From positions 1 to 26,206 of IMG/VR virus record IMGVR_UViG_3300008954_000239: a stretch of DNA of 26,206 bases; one strand, written 5' to 3'. Under the pieces are notes generated by a model that saw only the letters and a list, made by a program, of their open reading frames with translations, did no database searches and was not told the DNA's origin. The position numbers were made by a program, and so were the translations under genes. Positions 22,159 to 24,225 of the stretch are shown here, piece by piece. This DNA is from a virus. Position 1 is the stretch's first letter. Every line of letters starts with the position of its first letter.

Positions 22159-22160
22159 AA

Positions 22161-22234
22161 CACACCTGGCAGGACTCGAACCTGCGACCATCGGATTAGA
22201 AATCCGATACTCTATCCAACTGAGTTACAGGTGC
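22161..22234 (-). tRNA. tRNA-Arg (anticodon UCU)
   Basis: On the minus strand a complete cloverleaf can be folded. The acceptor stem is GCACCTG / CAGGTGT (closing G-U), the D arm AACTCAGTTGGATAGAGT, the anticodon stem TCGGA / TCCGA with loop TTTCTAA (anticodon TCT, reading AGA/AGG), and the T arm GCAGG-TTCGAGT-CCTGC. The discriminator is G and CCA is not encoded, so host enzymes must add it. AGA is a frequent Arg codon in this AT-rich phage (many AGA codons in the genes here), so the tRNA would help late translation in a host that uses AGA less. Confidence 0.95.
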
Positions 22235-22241
22235 ATAGAAG

Positions 22242-22748: not shown

Positions 22749-23081
22749 TTACACTTCTACCGTTTCTTCTACTTCTGCTTCAACCTCTTCAGTTGTATCA
22801 TCAGCAGGACCATTAATAAAAACTGTCATATATTCATCAACAAGACCAGATGTTGGTGTATAAATTACATCTACTTTTCTTGTATGAATTTTAATGTCAG
22901 TATCTCTTCTACCAAATTGAAACAATGGTGACATATTAATTCTATCACTTTCTTTATCCTGAATCATTGCTACTGGATTTTGTATGGTGTACCATTCTTC
23001 TCCCATTTCAACAACCTGAAAGATTATATCCATTCCATTATTAAGCGTCATCATCATAATATTATTATTTTCTTTAGTCAT
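22749..23081 (-). CDS. Sm-like (LSm) phage protein, copy B
   Basis: A 110-residue paralogue of its downstream neighbour. The same order of strands is visible: MMTLNNGMDIIFQVVEM, EWYTIQNPVAMIQ, MSPLFQFG, IKIHTRKVDVIYTP, then LVDEYMTVFING. The LNNG opening is closer to the canonical Sm1 motif than copy A. Identity between the copies is low, so the duplication is old. The C-terminus is strongly acidic (EEVEAEVEETVEV), unlike copy A. If the two form hetero-rings, one face would be acidic. AAAAGGAG precedes ATG. It overlaps the end of the 49-residue basic gene by 8 bp (ATGACTAA). Confidence 0.76.
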   Translation of the reverse strand: MTKENNNIMMMTLNNGMDIIFQVVEMGEEWYTIQNPVAMIQDKESDRINMSPLFQFGRRDTDIKIHTRKVDVIYTPTSGLVDEYMTVFINGPADDTTEEVEAEVEETVEV

Positions 23082-23223
23082 TTAGAATTCTCCTTTTTAG
23101 TTTTCGTGACTTTAGTTTTTTTCTTTTTTTTTTACCAAAGGCTCTTTCCCAGTTCTTGTCCCACTTCTTTTGGTCAACTGTTCTATATCTATCACCTTTT
23201 CCTGCATTATGTTTTCTTTCCAT
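23074..23223 (-). CDS. Small basic Lys-rich protein
   Basis: A 49-residue frame too short for routine detection: MERKHNAGKGDRYRTVDQKK, WDKNWERAFGK, then a run of Lys/Arg. GGAGAAG lies 5 bases before ATG, and the stop overlaps the copy-B Sm-like start (ATGACTAA), so coupling is likely. The GKGDRYR and K(F/W)-x-NW(E/D)RAFG elements remind me of short proteins in marine T4-like phages, family unnamed. Oddities: codons 31-37 contain A10-G-A7, a likely slip site for polymerase or ribosome, and its ATG overlaps a consensus -10 box, so the promoter at 23222-23249 cannot produce an mRNA carrying this start. Confidence 0.6.
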   Translation of the reverse strand: MERKHNAGKGDRYRTVDQKKWDKNWERAFGKKKRKKLKSRKLKRRILND

Positions 23224-23249
23224 TATACTTCTCCAAGTTATATAGTCAA
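23222..23249 (-). promoter_or_regulatory. Sigma70-type promoter overlapping a start codon
   Basis: Minus-strand TTGACT (23249-23244), 16 nt, TATAAT (23227-23222). The -10 box ends inside the ATG of the 49-residue gene, so transcription would begin near 23215. It follows the terminator at 23253-23277 directly and would feed the two Sm-like genes, the 47-residue gene and tRNA-Arg. Confidence 0.75.
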
Positions 23250-23252
23250 GAA

Positions 23253-23277
23253 AAAAGGTAGGATTAACCTACCTTTT
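23253..23277. terminator. Intrinsic terminator after the structured RNA region
   Basis: AAAGGTAGG-ATTAA-CCTACCTTT is a perfect inverted repeat. On the minus strand it reads GGTAGG TTAAT CCTACC TTTTTTC, a good U-tract, and would define the 3' end of the transcript covering 23278-23843. On the plus strand the tract is TTTTATT, weaker. Confidence 0.85.
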
Positions 23278-23843
23278 ATTATTTGTCGTTCCTAGTGGAG
23301 GCCAACCACTCTAGTCCTAATGAATCTTACATCATCTTCACATCTTGGGATACCCAACCGATTTCGATGTCAACAAATGCCTTGTACTGGAAGGAACGGA
23401 AGTTTAATTGGTGGTTCGGATACGGTTTGCAATTTTCACCATCGTCCGATTAATCCCTCAGGCGCGCACTTGGGAAACTTTGAGGCGGGTCTTAATGACG
23501 CGGCTCTTGTGTGCTTCTGCACCACCAAATTGTTTGTACTCCGACAGGATTCTATTATACCTGCAACTTTCGAGGTCAACTAATATTGTTATTACTCTAC
23601 TCGTACTGCCACTGTTAGAGTTATCCAACTAGAATCTATACCTCTCGGCCGTCTTCCACCCCACAACAGGGAGTCGCATACTTTAATCCGCATAACGAAA
23701 ATTTATTCAGTCACGGAGTTAGTGCAGTCAATTACCCCTGCACTATGTTATTCACTTGTCAAAAAATCCGATGATGGGCGTAATGAAAAATCATTTCGTA
23801 TCTTCCCCCACCATCAGAGAAGGGGTCACTTAACTAAAATTGT
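23278..23843 (-). ncRNA. Candidate large structured noncoding RNA (~560 nt)
   Basis: No supported gene lies here, and the tract is clearly richer in G+C than its flanks (one 60-nt line near 23461 is about 58% G+C). Many helices can be drawn in the minus-strand RNA: a 12-bp stem with two G-U pairs (23807-23818 with 23767-23778) enclosing a hairpin (23791-23798 with 23779-23786); an 8-bp hairpin (23738-23745 with 23720-23727); GUUGGA-UAAC-UCUAAC (23614-23629); UUGGG-UAU-CCCAA (23345-23357); GUGC-AGAA-GCAC (23511-23522); and longer-range pairs ACUCCG/CGGAGU (23714-23719 with 23538-23543), GAUUCUA/UAGAAUC (23630-23636 with 23548-23554) and UUGGUGG/CCACCAA (23522-23528 with 23408-23414). G-U pairs only work on this strand. 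It ends in a terminator. The class is not recognised; the 5' end is unknown. Confidence 0.65.
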
Positions 23844-24107
23844 TTATACAATTCCAGCCTGGATTGCAAAGTAGTTATCTGTATAACCGTGGAAATCCAT
23901 TCCATAACAAGTAGTGCCATTGTTTAGTTTACGACTAGTAACTTCCCAATTACCATATCGTTCAACTGTCTTTTTAACATCACTAATAGTAGCACGAAGA
24001 TTTGATACACCAAAACGGCTGTATGCTTGTTTTGCTGTAATATCGTTACCTTTTGCAAGGTATTCCATCACTCGTTGCTTTTTGCTTTTGCGTGTCTTTG
24101 TTGCCAT
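23844..24107 (-). CDS. Small helix-turn-helix-like protein
   Basis: An 87-residue protein with a basic N-terminus (MATKTRKSKKQRVMEYLAKG) followed by a winged-helix/HTH pattern, DITAKQAYSRFGVSNLRATI, then SDVKKTVERYG and a beta-wing-like end (WEVTSRKL, TTCYGMDFHGY). The frame is open upstream to 24218, but a perfect promoter at 24198-24225 would start transcription near 24191, so the upper ATG cannot be used; ATG 24107 has AGGAG 11 nt before it. It could be a DNA-binding regulator of phage or host transcription. The gene is the only coding sequence between its promoter and the structured RNA tract, so both may share a transcript. Confidence 0.78.
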   Translation of the reverse strand: MATKTRKSKKQRVMEYLAKGNDITAKQAYSRFGVSNLRATISDVKKTVERYGNWEVTSRKLNNGTTCYGMDFHGYTDNYFAIQAGIV

Positions 24108-24197: not shown

Positions 24198-24225
24198 ATT
24201 ATAGTTTATATTAAACATATGTCAA
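24198..24225 (-). promoter_or_regulatory. Consensus sigma70 promoter for the HTH gene
   Basis: Minus-strand TTGACA (24225-24220), 16 nt, TATAAT (24203-24198): 12 of 12 consensus bases. The -35 box overlaps the TGA stop of the upstream gene. Expected start near 24191. Confidence 0.88.

Follow-up and report, generated by a model that had tools for sequence, protein, structure and literature searches.

The window, a stretch of 26,206 nucleotides, is an IMG/VR fragment of a marine T4-like phage encoding an ssDNA-binding protein, a late transcription regulator, and baseplate and tube proteins. Its ssDNA-binding and head-closure proteins are nearest to those of cyanophages, at about 57-63% identity. 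Positions 23278-23843 sit inside a leftward block of small genes, and a preliminary description had proposed that they hold one unassigned large RNA rather than a gene. We found no supported gene there: the only open reading frames of at least 60 aa (23320-23583 and 23408-23632, both on the plus strand) had no match in Pfam or PHROGs. Neither frame showed the protein homology that the description had named as speaking against an RNA, and relatives of the region differ by many indels in its hairpins, which counts against a protein-coding gene. As described, the region is GC-richer than its flanks (0.43 in 23251-23750 versus about 0.32 to the left and about 0.35 to the right), and a tRNA gene lies about 1.05 kb away. 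Searching INPHARED directly with the DNA of this stretch gave no match. In the direction of the minus strand, we assigned the following features:

24198-24225, minus strand: sigma70-type promoter TTGACA-16-TATAAT (promoter scan, 12/12), which would start the transcript
23844-24107, minus strand: gene for an 87-aa winged-helix-like protein (PHROG 4973), first cistron of the same putative transcript
23770-23815, minus strand: 5' hairpin GAUGGUGGGGG..CCCAUCAUC, the long G-U stem of the preliminary description
23747-23766, minus strand: conserved leader UUUUUUGACAAGUGAAUAAC, between the 5' hairpin and manA
23534-23742, minus strand: manA RNA, Rfam RF01745, full model (1-192)
23408-23529, minus strand: insert 'module B', closed by GGUGG/CCACC and containing GUGC-AGAA-GCAC, found in seven viral records and the window
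23287-23398, minus strand: module C, a pseudoknotted RNA without Rfam counterpart (98.8 bits, E 7.4e-24; E-values of our covariance model R1 are rough)
23318-23341, minus strand: almost invariant 24-nt strand GUGAAGAUGAUGUAAGAUUCAUUA of module C
23294-23310, minus strand: hairpin P5 of module C, whose loop GGCC pairs with an upstream AAGGC (pseudoknot P4)
23253-23277, minus strand: terminator hairpin of 10 pairs with a minus-strand T run
23222-23249, minus strand: promoter of the next gene, TTGACT-16-TATAAT (promoter scan, 11/12), directly after the terminator
22160-22235, minus strand: tRNA-Arg (TCT), the next RNA gene on the same strand

The structural elements named in the preliminary description were recovered on the minus strand: the hairpins GUGC-AGAA-GCAC (at the start of module B) and GUUGGA-UAAC-UCUAAC (within manA), the long stem with G-U pairs (GAUGGUGGG..CCCAUCAUC, 23770-23815), and the terminator at the end of the region (23253-23277). 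Homology of manA and of module C both fix this strand. Single-sequence folding energy gave z-scores of -1.85 for the minus and -0.80 for the plus strand, which is weak evidence from only 20 shuffles. We judged the structure to be beyond chance because of homology with covariation (manA, E 2.8e-14; module C, E 7.4e-24).

When 23200-23900 was searched by cmscan with E-values up to 5, nothing besides manA exceeded its cut-off. The manA match scored 63.7 bits (E 2.8e-14), over the gathering cut-off of 55.2, which is modest compared with about 150-197 bits in most cyanophage-type members. The closing helix of the manA core ([[[[[ ]]]]] in Rfam) covaries in 11 relatives, where columns 27-32 pair with 207-212 through exchanges such as GGACGG/CCGUCC, ACUCCG/CGGAGU and GCCUGG/CCAGGC. 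Since the same search matched none of the GOLLD/ROOL-type families, the suggested membership in that class was not borne out. tmRNA, RNase P and introns likewise had no match above cut-off, and ARAGORN found no tmRNA. Sub-threshold matches to Termite-leu, sraA, snoZ157 and RsmZ (23216-23375) were rejected as low-scoring and lying mostly on the terminator hairpin.

To describe module C, we used the covariance model R1, built from 11 short-hairpin sequences (the hairpin of L188 trimmed by hand), with the window absent from its seeds. Module C is present in about 35 uncultured phage loci: R1 found 33 matches in 535 kb of relatives, window included, and two more in L193 and L194. These record counts include near-duplicates (30 of the 33 are distinct), and nearly all relatives are uncultured fragments. 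Among 684 kb of cyanophage-type manA loci, R1 found none.

Covariation among the homologues, whose absence the preliminary description had listed as evidence against its proposal, is strong. When the 30 distinct sequences were aligned by R1, 99.3% of cells paired and 18 of 20 pairs had changed on both sides; this fitted alignment leans towards structure, and exchanges such as CGUUCCU/AGGAACG for GACUCUG/CAGAGUC are readable by eye. The covariation score was 0.645 versus 0.221 ± 0.016 for shuffled and at most 0.103 for slid alignments. None of 500 shuffles matched module C in any measure, and slid versions were 32-46% paired. When the pseudoknot was included in the MAFFT alignment A3, 97.7% of cells paired, with both-side changes in 14 of 24 pairs. 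The diagnostic pseudoknot pair, with strands taken from all 33 matches, was A-U in 11 cases, G-C in 22 and broken in none.

Searches for known counterparts of module C gave no match among Rfam 15 families at E up to 2 (L175 copy) and none for the window copy, and a text search of papers for its core found none. Fragments of 20-30 nt in INPHARED lay nearly all inside annotated Kuravirus or cyanophage genes and were judged chance. As for isolates near the module C phages, their RNA polymerases were at most about 27% identical, and the winged-helix protein had no match.

Relatives were gathered by several routes. L129-L151 were reached through the upstream winged-helix gene (PHROG 4973), a branch-tuned manA pattern found 17 stretches in viral contigs, and a scan for the GAAGAUGAUGUAAGAUUCAUUA block found 33 contigs. 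Bacterial genomes gave a single match to the manA pattern (L169, Roseobacter), which looks like coding sequence and is not manA. In most relatives the region opens with a hairpin and an UUUGACAAGUGAAUAA leader, continues with manA and any optional inserts, and ends with a conserved block (GAAGAUGAUGUAAGAUUCAUUA plus a closing stem) and a terminator. In 12 records the gap between the end of manA and the start of module C stays at 5-7 nt, and manA and module C therefore form a unit. Other domains fill this gap in the window and in L152, L153, L160, L161, L166 and L189. Module B is one of them in the window; in L185 and L186 it instead stands on the 3' side of module C, and in L193 and L194 behind a truncated manA. 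Compensatory changes in 5 of its 22 predicted pairs (7 sequences) suggest that module B is probably a structured RNA. A further insert, GGGGAAGUGGA..CUUCCCC ('module A'), stands between manA and module C in L152, L153, L160 and L161 and is absent from the window.

Either partner also occurs alone: module C without manA in L173, L182 and L186, and manA without module C in L155, L159, L162 and L164. In L171, L175, L176, L178 and L181, module C is present and manA is found nowhere in the record. It then lies near a T7-type RNA polymerase gene (L171, L175, L178) or a DUF932 gene (L176, L181), and in L171 and L176 between tRNAs, the L171 copy beginning 2 nt after a tRNA-Arg. In L175 and L181, module C is one bead in a string of stem-closed domains with ACAAUCUAA-like spacers between them. 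Strings with such spacers adjoin the RNA polymerase or DUF932 genes of L175 (minus strand, about 1500-2320), L181 and L178; a recurring domain type is GGGGxGUAGUA..CUACUxCUCCCC, and Rfam matched nothing besides tRNAs among the string domains of these three records. Phage-borne tmRNA genes were seen as well, permuted in L145 (5057-5376) and L187 (7212-7472) and standard in L189 (6560-6896); of these, L187 and L189 have manA and module C as well.

That is, homology with covariation upholds a structured non-coding RNA on the minus strand of a tRNA-bearing T4-like phage. Of the claim of one unassigned large RNA, the structured RNA stands and the single molecule does not, the region being a string of separate modules. 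By the measure of Rfam, 'undescribed' holds for insert B and module C; a family already listed there, manA, accounts for about 210 of the 560 nt.

We then considered the transcript signals. The winged-helix gene begins at ATG 24107 after AGGAG, and an open reading frame start at 24218 falls within the promoter 24198-24225; the winged-helix assignment itself is weak (HTH_39, E 0.0012, just under the cut-off). A counterpart of the 5' hairpin is present in most relatives, and the leader is retained even where manA is lost (L173). The terminator hairpin is nearly palindromic and could stop transcription on both strands; the terminator scan lists the plus strand only. T-tailed hairpins of unrelated sequence stand at the same place in many relatives, and in most relatives a TTGAC..TATAAT promoter for the next gene follows soon after. 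The gene 3' of the terminated RNA region lies at 23081; a search for relatives of the downstream 110-aa gene found none. In L159, L162 and L172, a promoter with 11-12 of 12 matches lies 81-85 nt upstream of the GUGAC motif, against a background rate of 0.018 per 110 nt, so that the RNA of these three loci would start shortly before manA. Most relatives, and the window, are without a promoter directly before manA. The gene preceding the RNA varies between phages, and the RNA is constant.

The established reading of manA is that of a switch. A riboswitch candidate since 2010, a label repeated in later phage literature (PMC9964418), it was found in potential 5' UTRs (Weinberg et al. 2010, PMC2864571) and is typed as Cis-reg in Rfam; ligand binding or expression switching by manA is a proposal in the literature (PMC2864571, PMC9964418). 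Applied here, manA would be a metabolite-sensing, riboswitch-like leader for the downstream gene, and the modules on its 3' side would serve as the expression platform. Cyanophage-type loci agree with this: the next open reading frame, often the ssDNA-binding protein gene, follows at a median of 45 nt in 81 loci, and in 50 of the 81 a same-strand open reading frame starts within 60 nt, as a cis-regulator predicts. In the window, however, the next gene does not follow manA directly: about 255 nt lie between them, with two further RNA modules, a terminator and a new promoter. A 5'-UTR switch is unfit here because of this terminator and new promoter; the 5'-UTR position is the basis of the Cis-reg label, and its loss in the window counts against that label and not against the sequence membership of manA. 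In 16 loci of the window's branch the next open reading frame follows at a median of 200 nt, an underestimate because the finder accepts chance open reading frames, and what lies downstream varies between relatives: an HNH endonuclease gene, an unassigned gene or one for a conserved small protein.

In the isolate S-CREM1, moreover, manA precedes a tRNA instead of a gene: its distance to tRNA-Leu is 1 nt and its overlap with tRNA-Asn also 1 nt, and the published annotation and our scan agree that it fills the space between them. The authors of that annotation kept the cis-regulatory label (PMC9964418). A wcaG RNA lies among the tRNA genes of the same array (OP535465, 9745-9842; L196:746-843). 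A further manA (L009:1067-1249, 72.6 bits) was seen in a virus contig of 81 kb whose spacers are rich in TATA and which may come from a virus of archaea. No clear gene occupies the next 420 nt or so, and the gene beyond them is convergent, a setting that also disagrees with a leader. We consider the leader reading unlikely for this region, and open reading frame spacing, the promoters of three loci and the S-CREM1 position favour a free RNA in the window's branch. Cyanophage manA copies ahead of gp32 may still be regulatory.

Alternatively, the RNA could be a 3' UTR element of the winged-helix gene, protecting or regulating that mRNA and having no separate life. It comes straight after this gene, in the same orientation and without an intervening terminator (window, L129, L130, L132), and the window's 12/12 promoter is found only ahead of the gene. 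In L133 and L135, however, the RNA stands before the winged-helix gene with its own promoter and a terminator-like hairpin; elsewhere it follows other genes, and module C occurs in another kind of phage beside RNA polymerase or DUF932 genes. We regard this explanation as improbable. In L133 (3775-3990) and equivalently in L135, a promoter and then an untranslated leader of about 200 nt precede the 83-aa winged-helix gene; this leader is conserved between both and perhaps structured. Another relative with the winged-helix gene has a group I intron match (L140:1168-1342, 59.4 bits). Least of all do we believe that modules B and C are mobile RNAs which hitch-hike at a recombination hot spot near endonuclease and methylase genes and bring the phage no benefit: modules come and go and change their order (A and B may separate manA from C, or B may follow C) and some neighbours encode endonucleases, but strict pairing over divergent sequences, fixed manA spacing and termination kept by unrelated terminators point to selection on the RNA.

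We thus favour, with reasonable though limited confidence, a modular non-coding RNA gene that is transcribed with the winged-helix gene, terminated, and acts in trans without switching the next gene. Its sequence, structure, homology and signal positions are observed; that it is transcribed, stable, cut and active in trans, and what it would act on, we infer. Transcription would run leftward from 24198-24225 through the small winged-helix protein gene and the RNA gene (5' hairpin, manA, an optional insert that is module B here, and module C) and stop at 23253-23277. What remains would be a stable, structured RNA about 560 nt long or, if this is cut, its individual modules. The RNA would work in trans, the next gene being served by its own promoter after the terminator. 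Our best guess for its job is an interaction with the host translation or RNA-processing machinery during infection, because of the tRNA and tmRNA neighbours and the likeness to the T4 RNAs discussed below. For module C, we lean slightly towards an undescribed class of autonomous pseudoknotted phage RNA, found in T4-like phages and in phages with a T7-type RNA polymerase, with manA as its usual partner in a trans-acting RNA and not a riboswitch. What the region resembles is a small set of RNA tools of the phage, not a gene switch.

A branch in which manA stands apart from downstream genes, is joined to a second RNA and is terminated makes the reading as a stable phage RNA testable, as does an isolate with manA between tRNAs. 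The consensus structure of module C is good enough for searches and laboratory probing; since two unrelated phage lineages carry this module, its role in infection may be a general one.

How does this RNA compare with known ones? It shares with manA (RF01745) a full-length match above the curated cut-off, the GUGACUGAAUAA and GGUAUA..AAUCC motifs and the setting in marine T4-like phages; it differs in its low score, its place outside a 5' UTR, and the modules B and C, terminator and new promoter that follow. The wcaG RNA (RF01761), like manA, is a marine cyanophage RNA typed as cis-regulatory and lies among tRNAs in S-CREM1, but it is absent from the window and unrelated in sequence. GOLLD, ROOL and other large ornate phage RNAs resemble the window RNA in measuring several hundred nucleotides, having many helices and occurring in phages near tRNA genes; the window RNA differs in being made of small separable modules and in having no match to them in Rfam at E 5. 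The rnaC and rnaD of T4 (species 1 and 2 RNAs) are stable, structured and cut from a tRNA transcript; they lie within a tRNA cluster, where 1-6 nt separate them from the adjoining genes. Neither matches module C in sequence or structure, and the module C model (full model, filters off) reached at best 8.1 bits in their region, on a tRNA. The window RNA, unlike them, lies 1 kb from a tRNA, the tRNA setting being seen for relatives only: manA in S-CREM1 and module C in L171 are placed among tRNAs just as rnaC and rnaD are. In our reading, the region would yield a stable phage RNA, probably acting in trans, that compares with rnaC and rnaD of T4.
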